Below are positions 15,726 to 33,696 of a stretch of 39,107 nucleotides of DNA, piece after piece. The stretch covers positions 1 to 39,107 of the forward strand of contig JAUSDK010000240.1 in assembly GCA_030650875.1 (NCBI GenBank), in the 5' to 3' direction. The stretch is from Polaromonas sp. (GTDB taxonomy: Bacteria; Pseudomonadota; Gammaproteobacteria; Burkholderiales; Burkholderiaceae_C). The translations under genes and the position numbers were made by a program. The notes below the pieces were generated by a model, which was not told the origin of the DNA, made no database searches, and saw only the letters and a list, made by a program, of their open reading frames with translations. How positions within the stretch are numbered: the stretch's first letter is position 1; every line of letters starts with the position of its first letter.

Positions 15726-15734
15726 GGGAGGAGT

Positions 15735-17817: not shown

Positions 17818-18114
17818 ATGTCTGAACTGCCCCTCCAAGCTTTGCCTACACCGGCTGATGCGGCCCTGCTGCTTGAAGTCGCCGAACTGGTGGTGAGTGC
17901 CCTGAACCTGGAAGTTGCTGCCGCCGACGTGCAGGCGGACGAGCCGCTGTATGGCGACGGACTGGGCCTTGACTCCATCGACATTCTTGAAATTGCGCTC
18001 GTGGTCTCCAAACGCTACGGCCTGCAGCTGCGCGCAGACCATGACGACAACCACGCCATTTTTCATTCGCTGCGCAGCCTGAGCGACCATATTGCGGCGC
18101 AACGCACCCAGTGA
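17818..18114 (+). CDS. Acyl carrier protein of the aryl-polyene-type cluster
   Basis: The 98-aa protein has the phosphopantetheine site GLGLDSIDILEIAL with Ser53 as the attachment residue. The DSID core is typical of carrier proteins in aryl polyene clusters. It would carry the growing polyene chain. It is the only ACP in the cluster, whereas canonical aryl polyene clusters often have two. It is the first gene of a tightly packed operon. Its TGA overlaps the GTG of the next gene. Confidence 0.92.
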   Translation: MSELPLQALPTPADAALLLEVAELVVSALNLEVAAADVQADEPLYGDGLGLDSIDILEIALVVSKRYGLQLRADHDDNHAIFHSLRSLSDHIAAQRTQ

Positions 18115-18791
18115 CAAGCCAGCTGACGACGCGGTTGATCCAGGCCTGTCGTTGGGGATTTATCGGCCTTCTGGCCGTGGGCTACGCGGCGCTTTCCCAT
18201 CTCACCGCCACATCGACAACGCATGCGCTCCTGGGTGCCCTGGTCGCCGTGACGCCCATGCTGGCGCTGTCATTCCTGCTGGCCTGGCGCTCGGTCCGGC
18301 GCGCGCGCATGCTGGCCCTCTGGCTGGCGGTCTGTACCCTGCTCTATGGCGGCAAGGATTGGCTGATTGCCCATTACAACTGGATTTTCCTGCTGGAGCA
18401 TGCCGGCACCTATTTCATGCTCTGCGCCACTTTCGGGCTGAGCCTGCGCCACGGTGAAACCCCGATGATTTCGCGCTTTGCCCATATCGTGCATGGCGGC
18501 ATGTCGACCGCGCTGATCCGTTACACACGATCGGCTACCTGGGCCTGGACCCTGTATTTTGGCGGTATTGCGGGCATGTCCGTGCTGCTGTTCTGGCTGG
18601 CCCCCGTTAATGTCTGGTCGGCGTTTGCCTACCTCCTGGGCATTCCCTTGCTGCTACTGATGTTCGTGGGTGAATATGCTGCGCGTTGCTACCTGCTGCC
18701 GGCGGCCGAGCGGGCCGGGCCGCTGGAGTCCATTCGAGCCTACCGGAAAGCCTCAGCAGAGGACTCTGCGCGGCCTCGCAGCCAACCATGA
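18111..18791 (+). CDS. COG4648-type inner membrane protein
   Basis: The 226-aa protein has about five or six hydrophobic helices (residues near 14-32, 40-60, 68-82, 93-108, 142-162 and 170-195). It matches the membrane protein found next to the ACP and ligase in aryl polyene clusters (COG4648). The function is unknown. The start is GTG 18111, overlapping the ACP stop as GTGA. The basic C-terminal tail is probably cytoplasmic. Its stop overlaps the ligase ATG. Confidence 0.85.
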   Translation: MTSQLTTRLIQACRWGFIGLLAVGYAALSHLTATSTTHALLGALVAVTPMLALSFLLAWRSVRRARMLALWLAVCTLLYGGKDWLIAHYNWIFLLEHAGTYFMLCATFGLSLRHGETPMISRFAHIVHGGMSTALIRYTRSATWAWTLYFGGIAGMSVLLFWLAPVNVWSAFAYLLGIPLLLLMFVGEYAARCYLLPAAERAGPLESIRAYRKASAEDSARPRSQP

Positions 18792-20158
18792 CCACCTTTC
18801 CGCTCATCACGCATGCGCATGCCGAGGACGTCATCGCCTTCGGCCCTGACCAGCCCATCACCGCGGCGCATTTTCTGGCGGACGTCCGGCAACTTGCAGC
18901 TGCATTGCCAGCCGGCAAGCATGTACTCAATGTCTGCAGTGACCGTTACAGGTTTGCCGTCGGCCTGGCCGCGGCCCTGCTGGCCGACAAGACCAGCCTG
19001 CTGCCACCCACGCTCACGCAGGAGATGGTGCGCCAGGTCAAGGATTTTGCACCCGATGTGTTTTGCCTGACGGACCAGCCGCAAGCCATCGCCCTGCCTC
19101 AATTTTCATGGGTAGATGCCCTGACAACGCCCTCCCCCGCCAGGGCTGGCAAGCCAACAGAAAACCTGGACATTCCCGAGATTCCCGGCTCACGCACGGC
19201 CGCCATCGTGTTCACTTCGGGCTCGACCGGCGCACCTGTGGCGCACCGCAAAAGCTGGGGCGGACTGGTTCATAGCGTGCGCGCTGAAGCGGGCCGTCTG
19301 GGTCTGCTCGACGGGCAACGCCACAGCATCGTCGCCACGGTGCCGCCGCAGCACATGTTTGGCTTTGAATCCTCGGTGCTGATTGCCCTGCAAAGCGGTG
19401 CGGCCATGTGCATGGCGCATCCGTTTTACCCGGCCGACATCTGCTCAACACTGGCGGCGGCGCTCCGCCCCCGTATGCTGGTCACCACCCCGGTGCACCT
19501 GAAGGTGTTGCTGGCATCGGGCCTGGACATTCCCTTGCCCGATCTGGTTCTTTCGGCAACCGCGCCCTTGTTGCCTCAGCTGGCAATGGCTGCCGAGGCG
19601 CGCTTGCAGGCACCGGTTTTTGAGATTTACGGCTCGACCGAAACGGGCCAGATAGCCTACCGCCGCACGACGCAAGCCACTGAGTGGACGCTTTTTCCGG
19701 AAATCATGCTCAGCGCCACTCAGGGCCGCGTCTGGGCTTCGGGCGGTCACCTTGAGCAAGCCACACCCCTGGGAGACGAACTGGAACTGCTGGATGGTGA
19801 GCACTTTCTTCTGCATGGCCGCACCGCCGATCTGATCAACATCGCGGGCAAACGCAGCTCGCTCGGCTACCTGAACCATCAGCTCAACGCCGTGCCGGGC
19901 GTGGTCGACGGCGCGTTTTTCATGCCTGACGAAGGTGATGGTGACAAGGTGACGCGCCTGACGGCCTTTGCAGTCGCCCCCGGCATGACGGCGTCCACGC
20001 TGCTGGCGGCGCTGCGCGAGCGTATTGATGCCGTTTTCATCCCCAGGCCGCTCGTGCTGCTGGAATCACTGCCACGCAACAGCACCGGCAAACTACCGCG
20101 GGAAACGCTTGAGGCGCTGGCGCGCGAGCACCGTAAAAAGGCAGCCCATGCCAAGTGA
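18788..20158 (+). CDS. AMP-dependent acyl/aryl ligase of the polyene cluster
   Basis: This ANL-family adenylation enzyme (456 aa) should activate an acid starter and load it on the ACP. The motifs are FTSGSTGAP (142-150, phosphate loop), YGSTETG (281-287), GRTADLINIAGKR (hinge region) and NSTGKLPR with the catalytic Lys435. It is shorter than acyl-CoA synthetases, as in the aryl polyene and xanthomonadin clusters. The starter may be an aromatic acid such as 4-hydroxybenzoate, but no enzyme making it is encoded here. ATG 18788 overlaps the previous stop. Confidence 0.9.
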   Translation: MTTFPLITHAHAEDVIAFGPDQPITAAHFLADVRQLAAALPAGKHVLNVCSDRYRFAVGLAAALLADKTSLLPPTLTQEMVRQVKDFAPDVFCLTDQPQAIALPQFSWVDALTTPSPARAGKPTENLDIPEIPGSRTAAIVFTSGSTGAPVAHRKSWGGLVHSVRAEAGRLGLLDGQRHSIVATVPPQHMFGFESSVLIALQSGAAMCMAHPFYPADICSTLAAALRPRMLVTTPVHLKVLLASGLDIPLPDLVLSATAPLLPQLAMAAEARLQAPVFEIYGSTETGQIAYRRTTQATEWTLFPEIMLSATQGRVWASGGHLEQATPLGDELELLDGEHFLLHGRTADLINIAGKRSSLGYLNHQLNAVPGVVDGAFFMPDEGDGDKVTRLTAFAVAPGMTASTLLAALRERIDAVFIPRPLVLLESLPRNSTGKLPRETLEALAREHRKKAAHAK

Positions 20159-20483
20159 AGCAAAACTCTTCATTGCGCCAGACCATCCGGCTTTTGCCGG
20201 GCATTTTCCGGGAAGGCCGATTTTTCCCGGCGTGCTGTTGCTCGACGCCGCCGTGCACACCGCGCGGCAAACCCTGCACGCATCCTCATCCGGCGACAGC
20301 GGCGAAGGCGGCGTAAAAAATATCTGCCAGATCAGCTCCGCCAAATTCCTCAGTCCGGTCAGCCCGGGCGAGACCTTGACGATTACCTGCACCACCGCCG
20401 CCTCGGGCAGCATGCGCTTTGACATTTCAAGCGGAAGCCGAAAAGTGGCCACGGGCACGCTGGTGTTGGCACCGGTGCCATGA
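20148..20483 (+). CDS. Hotdog 3-hydroxyacyl-ACP dehydratase (FabZ/ApeI-like)
   Basis: This 111-aa single hotdog domain carries the FabZ-type signature HPAFAGHFPGRPIFPGV, with His19 as the expected catalytic residue. The acidic partner position reads LLLDAAVH, an Asp where FabZ has Glu. It would remove water from the 3-hydroxy intermediate and so build the conjugated double bonds. ATG 20148 lies inside the end of the ligase gene (11-nt overlap). It ends in ATGA with the next start. Confidence 0.85.
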   Translation: MPSEAKLFIAPDHPAFAGHFPGRPIFPGVLLLDAAVHTARQTLHASSSGDSGEGGVKNICQISSAKFLSPVSPGETLTITCTTAASGSMRFDISSGSRKVATGTLVLAPVP

Positions 20484-21451
20484 AAAGGGAAGGCGATACC
20501 CGGGCAATGGGAAGCGCTCAATGGCAACAAAATCCTGAGCGCAGCAACCTGTTCATGCTGCGGGTGATGACCTGGATCTCGTTGCGCCTGGGCCGAAGCG
20601 CGAGCCGCATCGTCCTGTACGCAATTGCGGCCTACTTCCTGGCCTTTGCGCCTGCGGCCCGCGGCACGTCACGCAATTATCTGCGCCGCGTGCTCAAGCT
20701 GCCATCGGCTGCAGCCGTTGGCTGGCGACATCTGTTCCGGCATTTTTTGAGTTTCGCGTCGGCCATCCACGACCGTGTCTATCTGCTCAACGACCGCTTT
20801 GATCTGTTCGATATTCGCGTTCACAACCAGGCGCTTATCGACAAGATCGTGGCCGATGGCCAGGGCGTGTTCCTGATTGGTGCCCACATGGGCAGCTTCG
20901 AAGTGCTGCGGGCCATTGGCCGCAGGCAACCCGGGCTGCGCGTGGCGATGGTGATGTACGAAGAAAATGCGCGCAAGATCAATGCGGCACTGTGCGCCAT
21001 CAACCCGAAAGCGCAGCAGGACATCATTGCCCTCGGTCACATTGGCTCGATGATCCAGGTGCATGAGCTGCTGGCCGAGGGCACCGTGGTCGGCATGCTG
21101 GCCGACCGTTCTCTTGGCAGCGACGACACGCGTCCCGTTGAGTTTCTGGGCGATACGGCCGAATTACCGCTAGGCCCCTTTCGCATGGCCGCCATCCTGA
21201 AGCGGCCGGTCGTCTTCATGACCGGCTTGTACCGCAGCGGCAACCGTTACGACATTTACTTTGAAGCGCTGGCCGATTTTTCAGCACTTCCGCCGCGCGG
21301 TCGTACCCTGGCGGTTGAGGCCGCCATGAGCCGTTATGCTGCACTGATGGCGCAATACTGTTACGTCGCCCCCTACAACTGGTTCAATTTTTTTGACTTT
21401 TGGCGCGCGCCCATGCCGCGAAAAGCAGGACACTCCGCAGAAATCACCTGA
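20480..21451 (+). CDS. LpxL/HtrB-family acyltransferase (COG4261-like)
   Basis: This 323-aa protein belongs to the LpxL-like lysophospholipid acyltransferase group. The HxxxxE catalytic motif is AHMGSFE (His136, Glu141), and a hydrophobic segment near 43-60 anchors it to the membrane. Related proteins in aryl polyene clusters are thought to attach the polyene to a lipid. ATG 20480 overlaps the dehydratase stop; the N-terminal 25 residues are poorly conserved in style, so the start could be Met26. The substrate is not known. Confidence 0.88.
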   Translation: MKREGDTRAMGSAQWQQNPERSNLFMLRVMTWISLRLGRSASRIVLYAIAAYFLAFAPAARGTSRNYLRRVLKLPSAAAVGWRHLFRHFLSFASAIHDRVYLLNDRFDLFDIRVHNQALIDKIVADGQGVFLIGAHMGSFEVLRAIGRRQPGLRVAMVMYEENARKINAALCAINPKAQQDIIALGHIGSMIQVHELLAEGTVVGMLADRSLGSDDTRPVEFLGDTAELPLGPFRMAAILKRPVVFMTGLYRSGNRYDIYFEALADFSALPPRGRTLAVEAAMSRYAALMAQYCYVAPYNWFNFFDFWRAPMPRKAGHSAEIT

Positions 21452-21455
21452 CATC

Positions 21456-22073
21456 ATGATGCCCTCCCTTGACCACCCTATATTTGCAATCCGCTGGGCG
21501 CGCGCCCCGGCATCCCTGGCGATTGGCTTGTTGCTGGCCGCAATGGGGCAGTCCGCCTTCGCCGCCTGGGACCTGCAGCAGCTGATGGATACGCTGGCGC
21601 AAAACAAGTCCGGCCACACCACCTTCGTCGAGAAAAAATATATAGCCATGCTCGACAGACCCGTCGAGTCATCGGGCGAGCTTGTTTACACCGCGCCGGA
21701 CGGGCTCGAAAAACGAACAATCAAACCCAAACCCGAATCCATGGTGATCAACGGCGGAGAGTTATTTATTGAACGCGGGCAGCAAAAACACCGCCTGCAG
21801 CTACAGGCCTACCCGGAACTGGCAGCCTTCATCGACAGTATTCGCGGCACCCTGGCTGGCGACCGCAAGGCGCTTGAACGCAGCTACCGATTGAGCCTGG
21901 AAGGTACAGCCGACCGCTGGACGCTGCAACTGCTGCCACTGAATGAAAAAATGCTGGCTGTCATCAAGCGCATCAGCATCGCCGGTGTGCGCGACCAGGT
22001 CCGCAGCATTGAAATTACCCAGGCCGATGGTGACAGCTCCCTGATGACCATCGAAAAATCGGCAACACCGTGA
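21456..22073 (+). CDS. LolA-like outer membrane lipid/lipoprotein carrier
   Basis: The protein has a signal peptide (hydrophobic SLAIGLLLAAMG, cleavage after SAFA) and a LolA-like domain (WDLQQLMDTLAQNKSGHTTF at the mature N-terminus, then LVYTAPDGLEKRTIKPKPES). It is about 205 aa from ATG 21456. LolA-fold proteins shuttle lipids or lipoproteins across the periplasm. In aryl polyene clusters this type is paired with the MMPL exporter that follows. It starts 4 nt after the acyltransferase stop. Confidence 0.85.
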   Translation: MMPSLDHPIFAIRWARAPASLAIGLLLAAMGQSAFAAWDLQQLMDTLAQNKSGHTTFVEKKYIAMLDRPVESSGELVYTAPDGLEKRTIKPKPESMVINGGELFIERGQQKHRLQLQAYPELAAFIDSIRGTLAGDRKALERSYRLSLEGTADRWTLQLLPLNEKMLAVIKRISIAGVRDQVRSIEITQADGDSSLMTIEKSATP

Positions 22074-24418
22074 TGACGCCAATTCGCCGCCGGGGCCTGA
22101 CCGCCATCGCGCTGTGGCTGGCTTTCCTGCTGGCGTGCAGCGCCATCATCAGCCGCACCCACTTCACCACGGACCTGTCGGCATTTTTGCCGAGCACCCC
22201 CACACCCGAACAGCAATTGCTGATGGATCAGTTGAAGGAGGGATTGACTTCACGCCTTATTCTGGTGGGCATTGAAGGCGCAGATGCGCCCGCCCGTGCC
22301 GGAATCTCCAGTAAGGTCGCCCAGCGCCTGCGCGCCGATCCGGCTTTTGTCAGCATCAACAATGGCGAACCCGTCAACACCGAGCGTGACCGCGCTTTCC
22401 TGTTCAGCAACCGCTACCTGTTGAGCCCTGCCGTCACGCCCGCGCGCTTCACGGAAGAAGGCCTGCATGCCGCCCTGAGCGACAGTATCGATCTGCTCGC
22501 CTCGCCTGCCGGCCTGCTGGTCAAATCCATGCTGCCACGCGACCCGACCGGCGAGATGATGCAACTGCTTGACCAGTTCAACAGCGGCAGTCGCCCCCAT
22601 CTCGTGGATGGCGCATGGGCCTCACGCGACGGCGCGCGTGCCTTGATGCTGATACAAACGCGCGCCGCAGGCTCCGATACAGACGCCCAGCAGCGCGCCA
22701 TGGCGTCCATCCAGCAAGCGTTCGACACGGCCGCCGCCGCAAGCCCTGCCGCCAAACTGGTGATGACAGGGCCCGGCGTGTTTTCGGTGACCTCGCGGGA
22801 CACCATCAAAAGTCAGGTCAGCCGCCTCTCCATCATCAGCGTGGTCCTGATTGCGACGCTTTTACTGCTGGTTTATCGCTCCTTCACCGCACTTGCCTTG
22901 GGCTATTTGCCGGTTATCAGCGGCGTTCTGGCAGGCATCGCCGCCGTCAGCCTGGGCTTTGGGTCGGTGCACGGCATCACCCTCGGATTTGGCACCGCGT
23001 TGATCGGCGAGGCGGTGGACTATTCCATCTACCTGTTCGTGCAATCCGAACAGGATGGCGCAGACCAGCAAAACTGGATCAAGCGCTTCTGGCCCACCAT
23101 CCGGCTCGGCGTTCTGACGTCGATATTCGGCTTTGCTTCGCTGCTGTTGTCCGGCTTTCCGGGGCTGGCACAACTCGGCCTGTATTCGATTGCCGGGTTG
23201 ATCAGCGCCGCCACCGTCACTCGTTTCGTGCTGCCGCATCTGCTGCCGGCGAAGTTTCGAATCCATGATGTATCGGCCATTGGCCGCGTACTGGCCCAAC
23301 TGGCAGGGCGCGCTGCGGCGCTGCGCTGGCCGGCGGCCATGCTGTTGCTGGCGGCATGCATCATCCTGGTCAATAACCGCGCCAGCTTGCTCAATGACAA
23401 GATATCGTCCTTGAGCCCGGTATCGCAGGCCGATGTCGCGCTCGATGAGCGCCTGCGCGCCGATATGGGCGCGCCCGATGTGCGCTATCTGGTAGTAGTA
23501 TCGGGCACCAGCCGGGAAGCTGTGTTGCGCTCTTCCGAGCAAGTCTCAACACTACTGCAATCGCATGTCGACCAGGGTGAACTCGCCAGATTCGAGAGCC
23601 CCAGCCGTTACCTTCCCAGCACCGAGACGCAGCGCGCACGACAGGCCAGCCTGCCACCAACCGCCCAGCTCGAAACACAGCTTGCAAGAGCGGTTCAGGG
23701 CCTGCCAGTGCAGGCAAACCTGTTTACGCCGTTTCTGGCGGAGGTCGCCGCCGCCCGCAGCCAGCCCCTGCTGCAGGCAGCCGACGTCGAGAAGACCTCC
23801 ATGGCCATGGCGATGGATGCCCTGCTCATTCAGCAGGATCAGCAATGGCGTGCCTTGTTGCCGCTGACCGCCGCTGAAGGAATCGATATCAATGCCGGCG
23901 GTATTCGCGCAGCATTGAAAGCGAGCGGTTTGCCCGACGTCCTGTTGGTCGACATGAAGGCCGAATCAGATCGACTGTATTCCGGCTACCTGCATGAAGT
24001 CGTCCTGCTGTCGCTGGGCGGAGTGATGGCCATCATTGCACTGCTGTTGCTGGTTTTTCGCTCGCCCATGCGTGTGGTCCGGATCGTCGTTCCGCTCGTC
24101 GCCGCAGTCATTACCGTCATGGCGGGATTGGCTGTTTTCGGCCAGCAATTGATTATTTTGCACCTGGTCGGTTTTTTGCTGGTGGTCGCTGTCGGCTCCA
24201 ATTACGCATTGTTCTTTGACCGGCCTGATCCGCGCACCCCGATCGCGCCCCGTACGCTGGTCTCGATGTTATTTGCCAACCTCACCACTGTTGCTGGTTT
24301 TGGTCTGCTGGCATTTTCCAATGTTTCCATATTGCAGGCCATGGGCGCCACCGTGGCACCGGGCGTCATACTGGCGCTGATGTATTCAGCCATTTTTTCC
24401 AGGCAAGCCAATGCGTGA
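22073..24418 (+). CDS. MMPL/RND-family exporter
   Basis: A 781-aa inner-membrane protein with the two-fold RND layout. Helix 1 is at residues 8-28, a large periplasmic loop follows, helices 2-6 cover about 240-400, helix 7 is near 430, a second loop follows and helices 8-12 cover about 645-780. It matches the exporter of aryl polyene and xanthomonadin clusters, which is thought to move the lipid-linked pigment to the outer membrane. ATG 22073 shares one base with the LolA-like stop; GTG 22070 is the alternative. It overlaps the deacetylase start by 8 nt. Confidence 0.9.
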   Translation: MTPIRRRGLTAIALWLAFLLACSAIISRTHFTTDLSAFLPSTPTPEQQLLMDQLKEGLTSRLILVGIEGADAPARAGISSKVAQRLRADPAFVSINNGEPVNTERDRAFLFSNRYLLSPAVTPARFTEEGLHAALSDSIDLLASPAGLLVKSMLPRDPTGEMMQLLDQFNSGSRPHLVDGAWASRDGARALMLIQTRAAGSDTDAQQRAMASIQQAFDTAAAASPAAKLVMTGPGVFSVTSRDTIKSQVSRLSIISVVLIATLLLLVYRSFTALALGYLPVISGVLAGIAAVSLGFGSVHGITLGFGTALIGEAVDYSIYLFVQSEQDGADQQNWIKRFWPTIRLGVLTSIFGFASLLLSGFPGLAQLGLYSIAGLISAATVTRFVLPHLLPAKFRIHDVSAIGRVLAQLAGRAAALRWPAAMLLLAACIILVNNRASLLNDKISSLSPVSQADVALDERLRADMGAPDVRYLVVVSGTSREAVLRSSEQVSTLLQSHVDQGELARFESPSRYLPSTETQRARQASLPPTAQLETQLARAVQGLPVQANLFTPFLAEVAAARSQPLLQAADVEKTSMAMAMDALLIQQDQQWRALLPLTAAEGIDINAGGIRAALKASGLPDVLLVDMKAESDRLYSGYLHEVVLLSLGGVMAIIALLLLVFRSPMRVVRIVVPLVAAVITVMAGLAVFGQQLIILHLVGFLLVVAVGSNYALFFDRPDPRTPIAPRTLVSMLFANLTTVAGFGLLAFSNVSILQAMGATVAPGVILALMYSAIFSRQANA

Positions 24419-25214
24419 GTCACGCTGGCAGCCCACGCTGCTGATCCGCGCCTCCGTGGCCCTGCATTTGCTGGCATTCCTGACAGCCATCGCGATGCCA
24501 GGGCAATGGCACTGGGTGCTGGCGGTGGTCCTTATCAATCACCTGCTGATAGCCGGCACAGGCCTGTGGCCGCGCAGCCACTGGCTGGGGCCGAACTGGA
24601 CACGGCTGCCCGCCGCCGCGACCGCCAGAAATGAAATTGCCCTGACCATTGATGACGGCCCCGATCCGGCGGTCACTCCGCAACTGCTCGATATCCTGGA
24701 TCGGTATGCGGCGCAGGCCACCTTTTTTTGTATCGGCGAGAAAGCTGTCCGGCATCCCGATTTGTGCCGGGAGATCGTTCGCCGCGGCCATGCCGTCGAA
24801 AACCATAGCCAGCATCATTGGCACCACTTCTCGCTGATGGGCCCGCGCGCCATGACGCGTGAATTGCAGGCCGCCCAGGACACGTTCGCGTCAATTGCCG
24901 GTCAGCGCCCCCTGTTCTTTCGCGCCCCTGCCGGCTTACGCAACCCTTTTCTCGATCCGGTGCTTCATCGACTCGGACTCACCCTCGCAAGTTGGTCGGT
25001 TCGGGGCTTCGATACCCGGGTCGGCGATGCTGGACGCGTAAAAAGCAAGCTATTGGGGGGCCTTCGCGCGGGCGCCATTTTGCTGCTTCACGATGGGAAT
25101 GCAGCACGCACAGCCGAAGGCCTCCCGGTCATTCTCGAAGTGCTGCCGGCTCTGCTGGAGTCGGCCGCGGCCGCACAATTGCGCACCGTGACCTTGCGGC
25201 AGGCTCTTGCATGA
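24411..25214 (+). CDS. Membrane-anchored polysaccharide deacetylase (NodB, CE4)
   Basis: Two N-terminal hydrophobic segments (about 9-28 and 34-52) precede a NodB domain. Motif 1 is TIDDGPDP (Asp81, Asp82), motif 2 is NHSQHH (His132, His136, metal ligands), motif 3 is FRAPAGLRNP and motif 5 is LLLHDG. All key residues of a metal-dependent deacetylase are present, so it is probably active. CE4 enzymes remove acetyl groups from N-acetyl sugars, but acetyl-xylan and other targets are known. It suggests a sugar on the product or on its lipid anchor. Length is 267 aa. Its stop overlaps the next ATG. Confidence 0.87.
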   Translation: MRESRWQPTLLIRASVALHLLAFLTAIAMPGQWHWVLAVVLINHLLIAGTGLWPRSHWLGPNWTRLPAAATARNEIALTIDDGPDPAVTPQLLDILDRYAAQATFFCIGEKAVRHPDLCREIVRRGHAVENHSQHHWHHFSLMGPRAMTRELQAAQDTFASIAGQRPLFFRAPAGLRNPFLDPVLHRLGLTLASWSVRGFDTRVGDAGRVKSKLLGGLRAGAILLLHDGNAARTAEGLPVILEVLPALLESAAAAQLRTVTLRQALA

Positions 25215-25906
25215 ACGCCCGGCGAACTGATGCTGCGCCATGGTATCGGCAAGCTGCAAAGCTCATCCCCAAACATATCTATCTGAAGAGTATCGGAACG
25301 ACACTATTTATCAGCCTGTTTTTCTGCGCTTATTTCTACGTGCTCAAAAATCCGGCCTACCCGATCACCGTGATGCCAACCACCTTACTGGACAGCCTGA
25401 TCGACTTTCAGCCGCTGGCCTTGCCGGTGTACCTGTCGCTGTGGGTCTATGTCTCACTACCCCCCATATTTTTTGCAACACGAGGCGAACTCTATCGCTA
25501 CGGGATGGCCGCCGCCCTGACCTGCCTTGCAGGACTGACTGTTTTTTATTTCTGGCCCACAACGGCACCAGTGGCCGATATCGACTGGGCCCGGTATCCG
25601 GACATGCTGTTTCTTAAAAACATCGACGCCTCCGGCAATGCCTTCCCTTCACTTCATGTGGCCACAGCCGTTTTTTCTGGCATCTGGTTACATCACTTGC
25701 TGCGCCGACTGGGGGGCCCGTGGTGGATACTCTCGATCAACGGCCTGTGGTGTATCGGCATCGCCTATTCCACTCTGGCCACACGCCAGCATGTTGCCGT
25801 GGACATGTGGGCGGGCGTCGTGCTCGGGGGGCTGGCCGCGTGGCTGTCCTTGCGACATCACCTGAAGACGACAGTTGCCATTAAAGTCAGCCAACCGCTC
25901 ATTTGA
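25211..25906 (+). CDS. PAP2-superfamily membrane protein
   Basis: A 231-aa protein with about five or six membrane helices. PAP2 motif 2 is FPSLH (146-149 for PSLH) and motif 3 is TRQHVAVD (Arg192, His194, Asp198), so the catalytic His pair is present. The motif 1 K-x6-RP is not visible; only DIDWARYP occurs nearby. This pattern fits the inositolphosphotransferase-like PAP2 subgroup better than classic phosphatidate phosphatases. It could transfer or remove a lipid phosphate. ATG 25211 overlaps the deacetylase stop. It ends 45 nt before the ketosynthase. Confidence 0.83.
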   Translation: MNARRTDAAPWYRQAAKLIPKHIYLKSIGTTLFISLFFCAYFYVLKNPAYPITVMPTTLLDSLIDFQPLALPVYLSLWVYVSLPPIFFATRGELYRYGMAAALTCLAGLTVFYFWPTTAPVADIDWARYPDMLFLKNIDASGNAFPSLHVATAVFSGIWLHHLLRRLGGPWWILSINGLWCIGIAYSTLATRQHVAVDMWAGVVLGGLAAWLSLRHHLKTTVAIKVSQPLI

Positions 25907-25951
25907 TGCGGGCTGACTCCCTTCATTTGCCAAATTACAGCCCTACTTAGA

Positions 25952-27169
25952 TTGGTGTTTTCTCTGTACCCGCTCTGGATTTCCCATTTCACCGCGACCA
26001 GCAGTATCGGCCGCGGCTTGCAGCAGACCGTTGCCGCACTGCGTCAGCGCCACAGTGGCCTGCTGCCTTGCGCGTTTGACACCGTAGAGTTGCCCACTTT
26101 TGTGGGCGAGGTTGCGGGGGTGGATGCCGTGCAACTCCCCGCGCATCTGGCCGCCTTTGATTGCCGCAATAACCGGCTAGCCTTGATGGGCTTGATGCAG
26201 GATGGCTTTTCCGAAGCCGTAGCCGCCGCCGCCCGAAAATATGGCGCGCAGCGGGTTGGCGTATTCATTGGCACCAGCACTTCCGGCATTCTGCAAACGG
26301 AGCTGGCCTATCGCAGGCGTGACCCGGTGAGCGGTGCCCTGCCGGCCGATTTCATTTACAACACCACGCACAATACTTTTTCGGTCGCCGATTTCACACG
26401 TCATTATTTTGGCTTGACCGGTCCGGCCGCCGTGGTGTCATCAGCCTGCTCATCCAGCGCCAAGGTATTTGCCTCTGCCCGGCGCATGATGGCCGCAGGA
26501 CTGATAGACGCGGCAGTGGTGGGCGGTGTGGATTCGCTGTGCCTGACCACCATGTATGGCTTCAACTCCCTTGGCCTGATGTCCTCGCAACCCTGCCGCC
26601 CGTTCGACTTGGCACGGGACGGCATTTCCATCGGCGAGGCGGCGGCATTCGCCCTGCTGGAACGCGTGCCGGAGCCGCTGGATGGAAATGCCGTCTTGCT
26701 GCTCGGGGTGGGCGAGTCCAGCGACGCATATCACATGTCCTCGCCCCACCCTGAGGGCCTGGGCGCCCGGATGGCAATGCAGGCTGCACTGGAAATGGCG
26801 CATCTCAACGCAGCCGATATCGACTACATCAACCTGCATGGCACCGCCACGCCAAGCAACGACGCGTCCGAGGCCAAGGCCGTGGCCGCCCTGTTCGGGT
26901 CAAGCACCCCCTGCAGTTCGACCAAAGGCGCAACCGGCCACACGCTGGGGGCTGCCGGCGGCCTGGAGGCGGTGATCTGCGCACTGGCGCTGCAACACGG
27001 GCTGATGCCGGGTGGCGTGAATACGCAGAAGCTTGACCCCGCACTGCCCCTCAATTACCTGCTCGACAACCGTGATCAAGCGGTTTCGTATGTGCTCAGC
27101 AACTCCTTTGGATTTGGCGGCACCAACTGCAGCCTGGTGCTTGGACGAGGCAAGGGAGGCGCCCACTAA
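25952..27169 (+). CDS. Beta-ketoacyl-ACP synthase of the polyene cluster
   Basis: This KAS I/II-like enzyme (405 aa) has the full catalytic triad: Cys166 in VSSACSSSA, His296 in NLHGTATPSND and His330 in GATGHTLGAAGG. It should extend the chain with malonyl-ACP. The start is unclear: the frame opens with TTG 25952 and GTG 25955 (giving VFSLYPLWISHF) and there is no clear Shine-Dalgarno. It is the only complete ketosynthase in the cluster, while canonical aryl polyene clusters have at least two. Its stop is just before the ATG of the chain-length-factor gene. Confidence 0.92.
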   Translation: MVFSLYPLWISHFTATSSIGRGLQQTVAALRQRHSGLLPCAFDTVELPTFVGEVAGVDAVQLPAHLAAFDCRNNRLALMGLMQDGFSEAVAAAARKYGAQRVGVFIGTSTSGILQTELAYRRRDPVSGALPADFIYNTTHNTFSVADFTRHYFGLTGPAAVVSSACSSSAKVFASARRMMAAGLIDAAVVGGVDSLCLTTMYGFNSLGLMSSQPCRPFDLARDGISIGEAAAFALLERVPEPLDGNAVLLLGVGESSDAYHMSSPHPEGLGARMAMQAALEMAHLNAADIDYINLHGTATPSNDASEAKAVAALFGSSTPCSSTKGATGHTLGAAGGLEAVICALALQHGLMPGGVNTQKLDPALPLNYLLDNRDQAVSYVLSNSFGFGGTNCSLVLGRGKGGAH

Positions 27170-27170
27170 C

Positions 27171-27968
27171 ATGCAGACACTCACCGCCTACATCGAGGGC
27201 ATCGGCCTGTCAGGACCTGGCCTGAACGGCTGGCCAGGCAGCCTAGCCATGCTCACCGGACAGCAGCCGTACCAGTTCAGCCCAACGCTGTTGCCGCCGC
27301 CGCTGAGCCTGCCCGCGGCAGAACGCCGGCGCAGCAGCAGCATCGTCAAACTGACCCTGGCTGCCGGCCTGGAAGCGGTTTCAGCCGCCGGGCTAGACGT
27401 GAGCCAACTGCCGATGGTGTTTTCAGCATCCAGCAGCGATGGCTACAACTGCCACGAAATCTGCCAGATGCTGGCCTCCGATGATCGCCAGATATCCCCC
27501 ACCCGCTTTCACAATTCCGTCCACAACGCAGCGGCCGGCTACTGGGGCATTGCCACTGGCGCCATGGCGGCATCGTCGGTCTTGTGCGCGTTTGACGCGA
27601 GCTTCGGCGCTGGTTTGCTGGAAACGCTGGCCCAGGTCGTCGTTGACAACAATGCCTGCCTGCTGCTGGCCTGCGACACCCCTTATCCCGAGCCCCTGCA
27701 TGGCATCCGTCCCTTGCCAGACGCATTTGGCGTTGCAATGGTGCTGGCGCCCCGACAGAGCGACCGGTCATTGGCAAAAGTCAGCGTCAGCCTTAGCGAT
27801 GCAGCCGCAGCGCAACTTGACGACAGCGGACTGGAAGCCTTGCGCACGGCGATTCCTGCTGCACGCAGCCTGCCCTTGTTGCGCCTGGTGGCGAAGCGCG
27901 AGACGGCCCATGTGGTGCTGGACTACCTCGATACCGCGCGTCTGGCCATAGACATAAGCCCATGCTAG
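27171..27968 (+). CDS. KS-like chain length factor (ApeC type)
   Basis: A 265-aa protein of the beta-ketoacyl synthase N-terminal type (PF13723-like) without the C-terminal KS half. The segment FHNSVHNAAAGYWGIATGAM and the stretch SSVLCAFDASFGAGLLET correspond to the KS region around the active site, but the KS Cys-Ser-Ser pattern is absent. In aryl polyene systems such proteins pair with the ketosynthase and set chain length. The start ATG is 1 nt after the KS stop. It overlaps the next gene by 7 nt. Confidence 0.88.
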   Translation: MQTLTAYIEGIGLSGPGLNGWPGSLAMLTGQQPYQFSPTLLPPPLSLPAAERRRSSSIVKLTLAAGLEAVSAAGLDVSQLPMVFSASSSDGYNCHEICQMLASDDRQISPTRFHNSVHNAAAGYWGIATGAMAASSVLCAFDASFGAGLLETLAQVVVDNNACLLLACDTPYPEPLHGIRPLPDAFGVAMVLAPRQSDRSLAKVSVSLSDAAAAQLDDSGLEALRTAIPAARSLPLLRLVAKRETAHVVLDYLDTARLAIDISPC

Positions 27969-28432
27969 ACCACGCCTGGATTGCCGGTCATATTCCCCAC
28001 CAGGGCGCCATGTGCCTGCTCGACAGCGTGGTGCATTGGGATAGCCAGCGGATCCAGTGCCGCGCCAGCAGCCACCGTAGCGCCGCCAACCCGCTGCGTT
28101 CACGCGATCAGCTCAGCGCTGTCTGCGGCATTGAGTATGCGGCGCAGGCCATGGCAGTGCACGGTGCACTGCAGGCCCCTGCCGGCAGCAAACGCCCGGC
28201 GGCAGGCTTCCTGGTCAGCGTGCGCGGCACGAATATGCATGTACCCCGGCTAGACGACATCGATGCCGATCTCGACATCGAAGCCGTGTGCATCAGCAGC
28301 AGCGGTGACCATATCCTCTACCAGTTCAGCCTCCACGCAGCCGGGCGCCTGCTGATGGATGGCCGTGCAGCCGTGGTGGTCAACGCGGAAAGTATCGCCC
28401 CGGCACCACCACCATCAGGAGACACACCATGA
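27962..28432 (+). CDS. Second hotdog dehydratase (ApeP type)
   Basis: This 156-aa protein has the hotdog pattern WIAGHIPHQGAMCLLDSV, which is typical of the second dehydratase of aryl polyene clusters, followed by the helix AVCGIEYAAQAMAVHG. It may form a heterodimer with the other hotdog protein at 20148, as reported for aryl polyene enzymes. The Pro-rich C-terminus (APAPPPSGDTP) is probably unordered. Its stop overlaps the reductase start (ATGA). Confidence 0.86.
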   Translation: MLDHAWIAGHIPHQGAMCLLDSVVHWDSQRIQCRASSHRSAANPLRSRDQLSAVCGIEYAAQAMAVHGALQAPAGSKRPAAGFLVSVRGTNMHVPRLDDIDADLDIEAVCISSSGDHILYQFSLHAAGRLLMDGRAAVVVNAESIAPAPPPSGDTP

Positions 28433-29148
28433 AACACGCACTGGTCACGGGTGGCAGCGGCGGTATTGGCTCCGCCGTCTGCCGGCGCCTGGCAGCTGAT
28501 GGTTGCCATGTTTTCATCCACGCCCACCGCGGCGCTGACGCGGCGCATGCACTGGCTGAAGAGATCACCGCGCAGGGCGGCAGCGCACAGGTGCTGATAT
28601 TCGATGTAACGGACAAAACGGCGACGGCGGACGTACTCAAGCCGCTGCTGGAACAAAACCCCATCCAGATCCTGGTCAACAATGCCGGCATCCATGACGA
28701 CGCGGTATTCCCCGGCATGCGGGCCGAGCAATGGCACAGTGTGATCGACGTATCGCTGCATGGTTTTTTCAACGTTACCCAGCCCTTGATGATGCCGATG
28801 ATCCGAACACGTTGGGGACGCATCATCAACATCACATCGGTGGCCGCCGTGGCCGGCAACCGCGGTCAGGTCAACTACTCAGCCGCCAAGGGCGCGCTGC
28901 ACTCCGCGACCAAATCGCTCTCACTCGAGGTGGCCAGCCGGGGCATCACGGTCAATGCCGTGGCACCCGGCATCATCGCCACGCCCATGAGCCAGGACAC
29001 TTTTGATGCGCCTACCATCGCCCGGCTGGTTCCCATGAAGCGCGCAGGCCAGCCCGGGGAAGTCGCCGATCTTGTGAGTTTTCTGGCGTCCGGGCATGCA
29101 GCCTACATCAGCGGCCAGGTCATTTCCATCAATGGCGGCATGATCTGA
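28429..29148 (+). CDS. 3-oxoacyl-ACP reductase (FabG-like SDR)
   Basis: A 239-aa short-chain dehydrogenase with all key motifs: TGGSGGIG (8-14, cofactor loop), NNAG (84-87), Ser136, Tyr150 and Lys154 (YSAAK) and a C-terminal ISINGGMI. It would reduce the 3-keto chain to 3-hydroxy before dehydration. It is the last gene of the coupled block that starts at 17818. Housekeeping fabG is normally in the fatty-acid cluster, so this copy is specialised. Confidence 0.93.
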   Translation: MKHALVTGGSGGIGSAVCRRLAADGCHVFIHAHRGADAAHALAEEITAQGGSAQVLIFDVTDKTATADVLKPLLEQNPIQILVNNAGIHDDAVFPGMRAEQWHSVIDVSLHGFFNVTQPLMMPMIRTRWGRIINITSVAAVAGNRGQVNYSAAKGALHSATKSLSLEVASRGITVNAVAPGIIATPMSQDTFDAPTIARLVPMKRAGQPGEVADLVSFLASGHAAYISGQVISINGGMI

Positions 29149-29237
29149 AAGCAGGAAAGGCAAGCCCGCACTACGGCAGGCGTTCCCTCCATGGTCCCGG
29201 ACGTTGAGCCCGGCCCCGCTGATGGCACTGCAAACCC

Positions 29238-30560
29238 ATGACCAACACCGCCAACATCGCCGCCCATCAAACCGAAGCACTGTTATTTTTCACGCTGCTG
29301 CAGCTCACCGTGATCGTGCTTGCCGCCCGCATTGGCGGCGAAATCGCGATACGCATCGGGCAATCCGCCGCTGTGGGTGAAATCATCGTGGGCATATTGC
29401 TGGGGCCCTCCCTGTTTGGACTGATCGCTCCAGATACCTTTCAGTACGTATTCCACTCCGGCAGAGCCGAGCCGATGCAGATGCTGTCGCAGATCGGACT
29501 GGTGCTGCTGATGTTTCAGATTGGGCTGGAATTCGATTTCTCCCATCTCAACGAGAAGCGCAACCGCAAGGCGATGTTATGGATCGCAGTTGCCAGCCTG
29601 ATGGCGCCATTTGCGCTGGGCTACACCATCGGTGCGGTCAGCGCCCCCATGCTCTCGCCTGATGCTCACCCACAGGCATCGGCGCTATTCATTGCCACAG
29701 CCTTTTCAATTACTGCCTTGCCGATACTCGGGCGCATCATGATGGAGTTCAATATGACGCGAACGCCGATTGGCGTGATCGCCATCAGCGCAGCGGCCAT
29801 CAATGACGTCGTCGGCTGGTTGCTGCTGGCATTGATCACCACGCTCACCTTGTCGGATTTCAATGGCGCCAGTTTTGCATTGAAAGTGGCACTGGTGGGC
29901 GTGTTTTTTGCGGTGAGCTGGTATGGCGTACGACCGGCAATGAAGCGCATCCTGCATCGCTGCGATGCCCGAAGCGGCGAGCTTTCCAATAACCTGCTGG
30001 GCTGCGTGCTGGCGGCAATTTTTCTGTCCGCCATGACAACTTACCAGCTGGGTATCTTTGCCATTTTTGGGGGTTTCACGATGGGCGTGTTACTGCATGA
30101 TGAACATGCTTTCGTGAAAAGCTGGCGCACGCGCATCAGTCCTTTCGTCATGGTATTTTTTCTGCCCATCTTCTTTACTTACACCGGCCTGCGCACCAAT
30201 ATCGGCAGCCTCGATAGCCCCGCCGCATGGGGCTGGTGCGCATTGATCGTGTTTCTCGCCACGCTGGGGAAATTCGGCGGTTCTTACATTGCGGCGCGGG
30301 CAACCGGTTTGAGCCATATGGAAAGCAAGATTCTGGGCGTCATGATGAACACGCGGGCCTTGATGGAACTGATCGTGATCAATGTCGGCTATGACCTGGG
30401 CGTCATTTCGCAGCAGATGTTCACCATACTGGTCATCATGGCGATTTTCAGCACGGTTATTACCAGTCCACTGCTGCGCCGCTGGCTGCCGTACATCGGG
30501 ATTCCTGTCCCCTCGAACTCAAAGCTGCCCCAGCACGCGCCTCATCAGCAAAACGGGTAA
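29238..30560 (+). CDS. CPA2-family cation:proton antiporter
   Basis: The 440-aa protein has about 12 hydrophobic helices and no C-terminal TrkA-N/RCK domain. The CPA2 landmarks are GILLGPSLFG near 52-61, the discontinuous-helix stretch TAFSITALPILGR near 154-166 and AINDVVGW with Asn189-Asp190, the ion-binding pair. It probably exchanges Na+ or K+ for protons. It follows the reductase by 89 nt and may be a passenger rather than part of the pathway. Its last 42 nt overlap the 3' end of the convergent glycosyltransferase gene. Confidence 0.9.
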   Translation: MTNTANIAAHQTEALLFFTLLQLTVIVLAARIGGEIAIRIGQSAAVGEIIVGILLGPSLFGLIAPDTFQYVFHSGRAEPMQMLSQIGLVLLMFQIGLEFDFSHLNEKRNRKAMLWIAVASLMAPFALGYTIGAVSAPMLSPDAHPQASALFIATAFSITALPILGRIMMEFNMTRTPIGVIAISAAAINDVVGWLLLALITTLTLSDFNGASFALKVALVGVFFAVSWYGVRPAMKRILHRCDARSGELSNNLLGCVLAAIFLSAMTTYQLGIFAIFGGFTMGVLLHDEHAFVKSWRTRISPFVMVFFLPIFFTYTGLRTNIGSLDSPAAWGWCALIVFLATLGKFGGSYIAARATGLSHMESKILGVMMNTRALMELIVINVGYDLGVISQQMFTILVIMAIFSTVITSPLLRRWLPYIGIPVPSNSKLPQHAPHQQNG

Positions 30561-31301
30561 GCGCAGCAGGAAGCCCACGAAAAGCCGGCTGTGCATCCAG
30601 GTGAGCAGCAAGTTGTCGCGCAGGTAGTTGAAATGCGAGACACCACCTGCGTCGGCACGAAAGTAGCGCACGGTCGCGGGCAGGTTGACGGGCTTGACGC
30701 CGCGCCAGCACATGCGCACCACGGCTTCGGGGTCGAAATCGAAACGCCGCATCCAGCGCTGGCCGCGCATGACGCTGCGCAGCGGCTCGATCGGGTAGAC
30801 GCGAAAACCGAACAGCGAATCGCCAATACCTGCCCAGAGCGTTTCGAGATTGGCCCACCAGTTGGACACCTTGCGGCCGTTGACGCGCAGGCGGGGTGCG
30901 TCGGCGGCGAACACCGGCACCCCCAGCACCATCGCAGCGGGTTGCGCGCTTGACGCGGCCATGAAGTCAGGAATCAGCTGAGCCGGGTGCTGGCCATCGG
31001 AATCCATGGTCAGCACATGCGTGAAGCCTTGCGCCGCAGCCAGATCCAGCCCATGCAGCACGGCAGCACCTTTTCCGACGTTGCGCGGAAGAACGAGAAC
31101 ACGCAAACCTTCATCCTGCGCAGCCATGGCCTGCAAGCCCTCGGCGCTGCCATCGGTGCTGCCGTCCACCACCACCCAGACCGGCGTCCACTGCACACGG
31201 GCTGCACGCACGGTTTCATAGACCTTGGGGCCGGGGTTGTAGCTGGGAATGAGTACAAGATGCGTGCAGGACGCACCGGTCGAGAAAGCATTCATCGGCA
31301 T
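30519..31301 (-). CDS. Family 2 glycosyltransferase
   Basis: GT-A fold: LVLIPSYNPG near 15-24, VVVDGSTDGS near 43-52 and the metal-binding DSD of TMDSDGQHP (100-102). The C-terminal part has a short hydrophobic stretch (LFVGFLLRLPVLLM) that may attach it to the membrane. It resembles dolichol-phosphate-mannose-synthase-like enzymes. It may put a sugar on a lipid carrier or on the product. Start ATG 31301 (MPMNAF) gives 260 aa; ATG 31295 is the alternative. Longer frames overlap the upstream acyltransferase. It is the last gene of a minus-strand operon. Confidence 0.88.
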   Translation of the reverse strand: MPMNAFSTGASCTHLVLIPSYNPGPKVYETVRAARVQWTPVWVVVDGSTDGSAEGLQAMAAQDEGLRVLVLPRNVGKGAAVLHGLDLAAAQGFTHVLTMDSDGQHPAQLIPDFMAASSAQPAAMVLGVPVFAADAPRLRVNGRKVSNWWANLETLWAGIGDSLFGFRVYPIEPLRSVMRGQRWMRRFDFDPEAVVRMCWRGVKPVNLPATVRYFRADAGGVSHFNYLRDNLLLTWMHSRLFVGFLLRLPVLLMRRVLGQL

Positions 31302-31338
31302 ATAACGTGAGCAGCAGAAAAAAGACGACAGGTCTGGA

Positions 31339-32154
31339 TCAGTCAGGAGGCGCTGAAACGGGAAACTCGGGTAACTGGGCATGTGCCAGCGCTGACTGGA
31401 AGTATTGCTCAAGCTCGCTGGCAAAGTGCGCGGTATGCGAAGGCGGGTCAAAGCGTTTGCCAAGACGGATTCGGTACGTGATTGGCATTTTAGGTGTCCA
31501 CAGCAGCGACCAGCCTTTGCCGAGAAAACCCGAATCGGTTTCAATGAAGACCGTCTGTACCGGCACGCCGGCATGTTTGGCGATCAGGCCGGTCGTTCCC
31601 TGTATCGGACCGACAGGAAACCGCATGGTGCGAGTACCCTCGGGAAACAGCAGTAAATGGCTACCCTGGCGCAAATCGGCAACCGCTAACTGAACCATGG
31701 TGCGAAGCGGCGTGTTGCGGATGTAAGCGGCCAGCCGGGCACCCGCGCCGAAGAAGACATTGTTCACGATGTCGGCCTTCATAATGCAGGCCGCATTGGG
31801 TAGCCGGGACAAAATCATGACGGCATCAAGCAAGGACGGATGGTTGGGCGCGATGATCATGGCCGGGCCGGCACGCAGCGCATCCAGTTCAGTGAGGTCG
31901 AAGCGACAGGCTCCGATCAAGACAAGCAAGCGCAAATAAAGCCGGAACAGCCTGGCAATCAGCTTGCGGCCTATCCGCTTGCTGTGCGTCCGCGGGAGAA
32001 AGGCGTACATCGGAAGTGCCATCAGCGAGAAGGCCAAGCTAAGCACGCCGAGCAGAATCAAGCCCAGGAGCAGCCTGGCGGTTTGATGCAGGGTCCGGCC
32101 AGCGGTATATAGCCCAAGGAGCTTGTTCAGGACGATATTCAGCTTGTTTACCAT
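31339..32154 (-). CDS. PlsC-type 1-acyl-glycerol-3-phosphate acyltransferase family protein
   Basis: The 271-aa protein has a membrane anchor near 27-52 and the acyltransferase signature NHPSLLDA (His105, Asp110) plus FPEGTR (170-175). These define the PlsC/LPLAT family. In this context the acceptor may be a sugar or glycolipid linked to the pigment rather than lysophosphatidate, but this is inference. Start ATG 32154 is 19 nt after the stop of the halogenase-like gene. It is the middle gene of the minus-strand operon. Confidence 0.9.
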   Translation of the reverse strand: MVNKLNIVLNKLLGLYTAGRTLHQTARLLLGLILLGVLSLAFSLMALPMYAFLPRTHSKRIGRKLIARLFRLYLRLLVLIGACRFDLTELDALRAGPAMIIAPNHPSLLDAVMILSRLPNAACIMKADIVNNVFFGAGARLAAYIRNTPLRTMVQLAVADLRQGSHLLLFPEGTRTMRFPVGPIQGTTGLIAKHAGVPVQTVFIETDSGFLGKGWSLLWTPKMPITYRIRLGKRFDPPSHTAHFASELEQYFQSALAHAQLPEFPVSAPPD

Positions 32155-32173
32155 TGGGTCGGGGTGTGGCCTG

Positions 32174-33526
32174 TCAGATTGCCGCCGACTTGGCATCTTC
32201 AACGATGCGAATGTTGGCCTTTCGCAAGCGCATGGCCTGCCAGGACCGTTTGAAATTCCAGACTGAAGCAATGTAGAAAATACCCTTGAGCGCTGCGATA
32301 GAGCGCCAGATCGGTGTTTTTCCAAAGATATCGCCCGCCAGCATGGACAGCAGCGCCTCCTTCACGCGCCACACGTTGCTGGGATCCATGAACATGTCGC
32401 GCATGGTCGGGTTGGTCACCCGATAAATAAACCACGAGAACTCTTTGGGGCCGAGCCGCACCTGCTGGTCAAAATGCGCCAGCGCCGTGGCGGCCTTGGC
32501 CGGCTCGCGCAAGCAGGTGTCCACCGTCTCGGCGCCGACAAAGCCGCCCTGCATGGCCAGCATGACGCCCGACGAAAATACCGGGTCGATGAAGCCGAAA
32601 GCGTCTCCAATGAGCAGGTAATTGGGGCCGTGCGTGCGGTTGCAGGTGTACGCAAAATTGCCGGTGGCCTCCACATCGGACGACAGCGTTGCCTGGGCCA
32701 GCCTCTCGGCCAATGCCGGGCACATGGCAAGCGTGTCAAAGAAAAAATCCTTCACCGGTTTGCTCCGGCTCTTCAGGTAATGCGGCCAGACCACTGCACC
32801 AATGCTGGTGGCGCCGTCAGCCAGCGGAATGAGCCAGAACCAGCCGTGCTCAAACCAGAAAATCGTGATGTTGCCTTCGTCTTGTCCCGCATGCCGGATA
32901 ACACCGGTGAAGTGGGCGTAAAGCGCCGAACTGTTGTGTCGGGTGTTGCGCCGCTTGATATCCAATTGCTTGCCCAGCACCGTGTCGCGGCCCGAAGCGT
33001 CCACCACAAAGCGGGCGCGCCAGTCCTCGGTGCGGCCATCTTCGTGCTGCGCATGAACGGTAGCGCCGCTGTGGTCAGGCGCAAAAGCCACACCTTTGAC
33101 CCTGCAGCCCTCAATGACTTCAGCGCCCAACTTTGCCGCATTGCGAATCAGGAGTTCGTCAAGCTCTGAGCGCCGTACCTGGTAAGAAAATGGCATGGAT
33201 TTATCCCAGGCATCGCAAAACCTGAAGGTCTGGCTTTTGCTGTCATGCCAGGGCGAGACAAATTCGGCGCCCCATTTCTCCATGCCGATGGCCCTGACGG
33301 CATCAGCCACGCCGAGTTTTTCAAATAGCGGCAAATTGGCAGGCAGCAAAGATTCGCCAATGTGAAAACGCGGATGATGTGCCTTTTCAAGGACGACAAC
33401 CTTGTACCCGCGTTGCGCCAACAGCGCCCCGGCCGTGGATCCTGCCGGCCCACCACCAATCACCAGCACATCGCAGTCACTCGGGGCTGCCGAGGATGAG
33501 GTGGCCAGTGAAATTTGCTCGATCAT
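32174..33526 (-). CDS. Flavin-dependent halogenase-like oxidoreductase
   Basis: This 450-aa protein has the FAD motif VIGGGPAGS (22-30), then FHIGESLLPA (55-63), a Lys at 84 in EKWGAEF, WFWLIP (229-234) and FIDPVFSSG (312-320). WxWxIP and F-x2-P-x2-S-x-G are diagnostic of flavin-dependent halogenases, and Lys84 lies where the catalytic Lys of PltA-type enzymes is found. The related geranylgeranyl-reductase-like flavoproteins share only the FAD parts. Halogenated polyene pigments (xanthomonadins) are known. Start ATG 33526 has AGGA 6 nt upstream; a longer frame to 33664 is rejected. It is the first gene of the minus-strand operon. Confidence 0.88.
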   Translation of the reverse strand: MIEQISLATSSSAAPSDCDVLVIGGGPAGSTAGALLAQRGYKVVVLEKAHHPRFHIGESLLPANLPLFEKLGVADAVRAIGMEKWGAEFVSPWHDSKSQTFRFCDAWDKSMPFSYQVRRSELDELLIRNAAKLGAEVIEGCRVKGVAFAPDHSGATVHAQHEDGRTEDWRARFVVDASGRDTVLGKQLDIKRRNTRHNSSALYAHFTGVIRHAGQDEGNITIFWFEHGWFWLIPLADGATSIGAVVWPHYLKSRSKPVKDFFFDTLAMCPALAERLAQATLSSDVEATGNFAYTCNRTHGPNYLLIGDAFGFIDPVFSSGVMLAMQGGFVGAETVDTCLREPAKAATALAHFDQQVRLGPKEFSWFIYRVTNPTMRDMFMDPSNVWRVKEALLSMLAGDIFGKTPIWRSIAALKGIFYIASVWNFKRSWQAMRLRKANIRIVEDAKSAAI

Positions 33527-33696
33527 TGGGTATCCTTGGTTGGGCGAGCCTGTCGCAAGCTCTCGGCATTCACTTTTGCCGTCGGTAATTTCCACTTGCG
33601 TGTTCAGCTCGGCGATTTTACGTTGGTGGCACAGCATGTTTATTCGAGTTGGCCTTGACACCACCCGTCAAAGCACCGAACTTAAGCCGTGAAAAT

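Follow-up and report, generated by a model that had tools for sequence, protein, structure and literature searches.

What do the 17 genes between positions 17818 and 33526 of a Polaromonas sp. contig make? The stretch of DNA that was analyzed (39,107 nucleotides, contig JAUSDK010000240.1 of assembly GCA_030650875.1; hereafter the window) combines polyketide genes with a halogenase-family gene and with genes of lipid and sugar chemistry, and the locus thus raises the question of whether a halogen and a lipid are placed on its product. The region holds a type II polyketide synthase (PKS) aryl-polyene cluster. Very probably it serves the synthesis of a yellow membrane pigment of the arcuflavin/xanthomonadin (arc/pig) type, the host being Polaromonas-like, as suggested by the family matches, the shared gene order, the counterparts in Azoarcus and the signature of the halogenase.

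The cluster is flanked by a suhB-like gene (16664, assigned by PF00459) and a mutS-like gene (34029, recognized by eye). Fourteen genes (17818-30560) are read from the plus strand and the other three (33526-30519) from the minus strand, the two groups being convergent with ends that overlap by about 40 bases. The open reading frames (ORFs) of all 17 genes are intact, and 16 of them have a Pfam match, including the second dehydratase, though that match is under its cut-off. By the halogenase, the nearest named relatives are Polaromonas genomes (89% identity, locus L039). The host genome of the window is a draft of 3.23 Mb in 291 contigs with a completeness of 87.55%, and therefore absences in this genome alone carry little weight.

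The genes for building the polyene are all located on the plus strand. In detail, they encode an acyl carrier protein (ACP; 17818..18114; PF00550, and NF006617 at 132.9 bits with a cut-off of 70), an AMP-binding ligase, putatively an aryl:ACP ligase (18788..20158, likely start ATG 18788; PF00501, 82.9 bits), a FabA/FabZ-like dehydratase (20148..20483, likely start 20148; PF07977, 44.9 bits), a ketosynthase (KS; 25952..27169; PF00109/PF02801, and NF006618 at 574.6 bits with a cut-off of 407), a second, ApeP-like dehydratase (27962..28432; PF22817, 16.8 bits, under the cut-off of 27) and a ketoreductase (KR, FabG; 28429..29148; PF00106, 186.2 bits, and NF004200 at 371.9 bits with a cut-off of 273). 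The translation of the KS contains the CSSS motif, and the gene adjoins that of a half-length protein resembling a chain length factor (CLF; 27171..27968, start inferred; PF13723, 85.7 bits). Such a pair of a KS and a half-length CLF partner has been described (PMC3691225). The pair, together with the ACP, the ligase, the KR and the two dehydratases, places the locus among aryl-polyene clusters in the wide sense.

The same wide-sense assignment is reached from the export genes, that is, those of a LolA-like carrier (21456..22073, plus strand; PF19574 (LolA_3), 90.5 bits, and NF053544 LolA2_flexi at 67.3 bits, under its cut-off of 125) and an MMPL exporter of the resistance-nodulation-division (RND) kind (22070..24418, plus; PF03176, 52.1 bits), which are accompanied by acyltransferases. 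One of these is LpxL-like (20480..21451, plus; PF03279 (Lip_A_acyltrans), 40.4 bits). The other, PlsC (31339..32154, minus, likely start 32154; PF01553, 49 bits), is found on the opposite strand together with a GT2 glycosyltransferase (30519..31295, minus, likely start 31295; PF00535, 72.5 bits). The remaining genes of the plus strand encode a CE4 polysaccharide deacetylase (24411..25214; PF01522, 100.4 bits), a PAP2-family membrane protein (25211..25906; PF01569, 42.8 bits; PF14378, 40.5 bits) whose gene is placed between those of CE4 and the KS, and an Na+/H+ antiporter (29238..30560; PF00999, 192.8 bits), the counterpart of arcG by annotation. A membrane protein at 18111..18791 (plus) is COG4648/ApeG-like by position, the name being taken from apeG of the Escherichia coli cluster (PMC8253772); searches of Pfam and NCBIfam gave no match for it.

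An earlier note on this DNA, made from the sequence alone, had described an aryl-polyene/xanthomonadin-type cluster with a halogenase-family enzyme and lipid and sugar tailoring genes, and the family matches support that description. The genes it named exist as ORFs at the positions it gave, with families that Pfam and NCBIfam in most cases confirm. Its list was otherwise sound but overlooked the Na+/H+ antiporter, and most of its gene names hold, those of the COG4648 protein and of the second dehydratase being weakly based.

The conservation of the cluster was followed through the gene of the halogenase-family protein. A scan of named genomes with this protein showed a relative encoded in 446 of 459 candidate stretches, and the best 80 loci were kept. 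The peptide patterns used to retrieve them cover the lysine and tryptophan stretches of the halogenase, the loci end at a 10-kb flank or at contig ends, and their genes were counted by tblastn with the window proteins (E 1e-4). PlsC has a match in 75 of the 80 loci and GT2 in 74. The polyene genes follow with KR (57), KS (55), the second dehydratase (53) and CLF (52), and then come CE4 (48), MMPL (47), the Na+/H+ antiporter (29), PAP2 (28) and LolA (23). Less frequent are the LpxL-like acyltransferase (17), the ACP and the COG4648-like protein (13 each), and the ligase and the first dehydratase (12 each). Since the cluster genes occur together in many related loci, their grouping is not due to chance.

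The window's own clade comprises 22 loci (L039-L060), 19 of them Polaromonas by name. PlsC and GT2 are found in all 22, KS in 20 and PAP2 in 17. The Na+/H+ antiporter is present in only two of these loci. Regarding the two clade loci in which KS was unseen, L046 ends before the KS, and L050 has none within 8 kb downstream. The latter, from Polaromonas sp. A23, has the halogenase, PlsC and GT2 without the KS core in that interval; the minus-strand trio may exist there without the core, or the core may sit elsewhere. A ubiE-type methyltransferase occurs in 21 of the 80 loci and in 13 of the 22 of the clade (in L078 it lies beside the KR, at 15271-16056 on the minus strand) and is missing from the window.

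In a draw of 200 genomes from the window's family, a halogenase match (E 1e-60 or better) was detected in 35, the window's own genome included. Among 29 family loci with at most about 1.5 kb on each side, PlsC is visible in 15, and five loci (L024, L026, L030, L032, and L035) have neither another cluster gene nor a chorismatase within these short flanks. The linkage of the halogenase with the cluster genes is thus not universal.

The halogenase-family protein itself is encoded at 32174..33526 on the minus strand (PF04820 (Trp_halogenase), 103.5 bits). At E 1e-10 or better, it matches 15 sequences of solved structures, 11 of which are named halogenase, including 8zop (215 bits), 3e1t, 5buk, and 5dbj (PltA); 3nix and 3oz2 do not bear this name. 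ChlB4 and the alkylhalidase CmlS, also among the matches, are halogenases as well. A catalytic lysine and the WxWxIP motif are hallmarks of flavin-dependent halogenases, and some of these enzymes (CndH, PltA and Mpy16, for example) use substrates that are bound to a carrier. The window protein has both features as well as the FAD-binding GxGxxG; its lysine in MEKWGAEF and its WFWLIP stretch align with the template lysine and WxWxIP in all four alignments inspected. In a pattern-enriched alignment of 110 rows (the window and 109 loci, 108 rows being different), K86, W231, W233, I235, and P236 are invariant, with residue 1 taken as the codon at 33532, and so are five positions of the DPxFSSG stretch (D, P, F, the first S, and G). 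The freer sample for this invariance is formed by the 29 rows from the genome draw, which were found without motif patterns, and invariance among close relatives is no test of activity. The conserved lysine and WxWxIP mean that the protein can be a halogenase, a role which is plausible from its sequence. Cao et al. reportedly obtained chlorinated pigments in 2018 by expressing the Xanthomonas pig cluster in Pseudomonas.

A further gene separates the window's clade from its relatives. Outside the clade, most relatives have a chorismatase gene of the FkbO/Hyg5/XanB2 group between those of the halogenase and PlsC (identified in L102 by PF21168, with TIGR04444 at 246.7 of 325 bits, under cut-off). 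By tblastn it is found in 49 of the 80 loci, namely in none of the 22 clade loci versus 49 of the 58 others. A search of whole genomes with the L102 protein, covering the window's own genome and 18 clade genomes, gave no match in the former or in 17 of the latter, and the 18th showed a weak partial match only (E 3.9e-4, 20.2 bits); the four positive controls, which included the source of the query, were all found. In this search, the Herminiimonas genome of L118 had no match either, and the genome of L098 has a match while the L098 locus itself has none. PF21168 and TIGR04444 are without a match in the window's own genome. Within its family, PF21168 has a match in 21 of the 34 other genomes that carry a halogenase and in none of 15 genomes picked from those without a halogenase match. 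In a quickly built halogenase tree, in which 99 of the 110 rows carry a chorismatase label and 11 do not, the presence of the gene changes at least nine times through gains or losses. Of the features that define xanthomonadin/arcuflavin clusters in the narrow sense, the window has PlsC and GT2 next to its halogenase gene and lacks the XanB2-type chorismatase that makes 3-hydroxybenzoate. The absence in the clade is real but a modest difference and not new in kind, given that a pig-like cluster of Ralstonia solanacearum without xanB2 is already published (PMC9542644).

Other sources of a ring were sought in the genomes. Of the chorismate lyase families, PF04345 was found in none of 19 genomes (the window's own and the 18 of the clade) in a search whose sensitivity for a divergent lyase of these bacteria is unchecked, and PF01947 in none of 20, the own genome included, of which eight belong to the set of 19. 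A mixed set of 52 genomes, some with and some without a halogenase, lacks PF04345 in 43 cases, so that this absence is no special feature of the cluster. UbiA is present in all nine genomes searched for it, again including the own one, which indicates that 4-hydroxybenzoate is probably made; the UbiA neighborhoods of these nine genomes (about 1.5 kb on each side, neighbors recognized by eye only) contained no candidate lyase. An aromatic ammonia lyase was considered as the ring source and set aside, PF00221 having no match in the own genome. As a separate observation, 18 of 20 genomes (the own and 17 others) show no match to PF04345, the XanB2-type chorismatase or PF01947, the seven of the 18 in which UbiA was looked for all have it above the cut-off, and the three-family search returned one weak partial chorismatase match, in G200. 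Either the 4-hydroxybenzoate for ubiquinone in these 18 genomes comes from outside the three families searched, or a PF04345 member there is too divergent for the search.

Since no chorismatase making 3-hydroxybenzoate stands in the cluster, the starter of the chain may be 4-hydroxybenzoate or may come from another source. That it is not 3-hydroxybenzoate, and most likely 4-hydroxybenzoate instead, is a serious possibility, judged at somewhat below even chances: the chorismatase is common among the 80 loci but absent from the clade, both at the locus and, but for the 20.2-bit partial match, across the genomes, and UbiA suggests a supply of 4-hydroxybenzoate, whereas the known sources of this acid are unmatched as well, and 3-hydroxybenzoate might be taken up from outside or made by an unknown enzyme. 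A more specific proposal, namely that Polaromonas-type clusters produce a halogenated aryl polyene in which another ring takes the place of 3-hydroxybenzoate, with a hydroxybenzoate source outside the searched chorismatase and chorismate lyase families and a halogenase signature kept while the ring supplier came and went, appears improbable. The same missing chorismatase, together with the methyltransferase that the window lacks and with L050 as a clade locus without a visible KS, could also be read as decay or silence of the cluster in this lineage, with no pigment made; this is considered very improbable, as against it all 17 frames are open, the clade keeps the gene order and the halogenase shows no variation in its signature residues.

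As for the halogen, the protein at 32174..33526 could act here as a flavin monooxygenase or as a redox or proofreading protein on a pigment that is not halogenated, a reading held to be rather unlikely. It gains from the QhpG profile, which is nearly as close to the protein as that of CmlS (171.6 of 240 bits and 186.2 of 900 bits, respectively, in curated NCBIfam) and represents a monooxygenase with a halogenase-like fold (PMC7876137). It also gains from arcuflavin, whose loci carry the halogenase gene arcA and whose pigment is nevertheless proposed to be a non-brominated aryl heptaene (PMC3949708). Opposed to it are the invariant lysine and WxWxIP, the predominance of halogenases among the closest solved sequences, and the comparison of Xanthomonas, where the clusters carry the gene and the pigment is brominated, with Lysobacter, where the gene is lacking and no bromine isotope pattern is reported (PMC3691225); xanthomonadin is likewise described as brominated elsewhere (PMC11021962). 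Several points weigh against a halogenating pigment cluster of the arc/pig type. The invariance is partly built in, because the patterns that retrieved 80 of the 110 rows include the lysine and tryptophan stretches; none of the 25 best NCBIfam models, out of 106 matched, is over its cut-off for this protein; judging from arcuflavin, the enzyme might be silent or have another function; G099, the only further genome of this genus among those listed in the draw of 200, has no halogenase match, so that the cluster is not genus-wide; and a literature search on Polaromonas and aryl polyenes showed no pigment product for the genus among the matches listed. The earlier note was right about a halogenase-family enzyme and overstated the halogenated product, which does not follow from the gene, as the arcuflavin cluster indicates.

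For an arc/pig-type pigment cluster, a course of synthesis can be proposed in which every reaction, as well as the aryl starter, the halogenation and the anchor, is predicted from protein families and published relatives. The ligase would load an aromatic acid, probably a hydroxybenzoate, onto the ACP, and the KS/CLF pair, the KR and the two dehydratases would extend a conjugated polyene on this starter. If halide is available, the halogenase-family flavoprotein could act on a carrier-bound aryl or polyene intermediate. PlsC, the LpxL-like acyltransferase and GT2 would then join the polyene acid to a lipid of the membrane, with CE4 and PAP2 as possible trimming enzymes for this lipid, and MMPL and LolA would carry the product to the outer membrane. 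The glycosylated, deacetylated lipid anchor predicted in the earlier note is a reasonable guess, and the five lipid and sugar genes (GT2, PlsC, LpxL-like, CE4, and PAP2) would fit a lipid or glycolipid anchor. In E. coli, ApeD and ApeJ are proposed to fix the polyene to a lipid, and RND and Lol-like proteins are proposed as exporters (PMC8253772). The same source describes the E. coli anchor as not yet known and refers to a preprint in which the lipid of Xenorhabdus doucetiae was solved; a literature search on the aryl-polyene anchor returned nothing among the matches listed.

Compared with known systems, the ape cluster of E. coli CFT073 shares with the window the ACP, the COG4648 protein, the ligase, the dehydratases, the KS and the KR, as well as the LolA-like protein, the RND exporter and the acyltransferases (PMC8253772). 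It differs in having two ACPs, a methyltransferase, a thioesterase and three KS-type genes, and its Table 1 lists no halogenase, CE4, PAP2, or Na+/H+ antiporter. Like the window, the pig (xan) cluster of Xanthomonas combines type II PKS genes with that of a halogenase, and its pigments contain zero to two bromines (PMC3691225); unlike in the window, XanB2 supplies 3-hydroxybenzoate, a comparison made by description and not by sequence. The acpP2 cluster of R. solanacearum resembles the window, by description only, in being pig-like without a xanB2 homologue (PMC9542644).

The closest likeness is to the two unlinked arc loci of Azoarcus sp. BH72 (PMC3949708). These include arcA (halogenase), arcD and arcR (acyltransferases), arcE (glycosyl transferase), arcG (Na+/H+ antiporter), and arcN (PS-deacetylase), and they also list an ACP, a ligase, two dehydratases, LolA, an exporter, a KS, a KS-domain protein and a reductase; insertions in arcK and arcT gave colorless mutants. 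In Table 1 of this source, 15 of the 17 cluster genes have a named counterpart, by annotation and not by sequence. The COG4648-like protein could correspond by position to the hypothetical arcU. For PAP2 no counterpart is named, and a single hypothetical protein (arcO, its kind unknown) is left over. A chorismatase (arcB, XanB2-type), a MipA-type protein, a methyltransferase and regulators are found in Azoarcus and not in the window, which differs further in being a single locus with a PAP2 gene. The statement of the earlier note that no described pathway has this exact set therefore largely fails, and since most of these genes are known as a set from other bacteria, the finding is mostly an ordinary one. 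The related loci show that the halogenase accompanies PlsC and GT2 whether the chorismatase is present or not, and establishing the ring source or the halogen would help to settle the role of the halogenase-family protein in clusters like that of Azoarcus, with its pigment proposed to lack bromine. Similar clusters are reported in Dechloromonas, Variovorax, and Sideroxydans (PMC3949708), and to this widespread pigment family a Polaromonas branch is now added.

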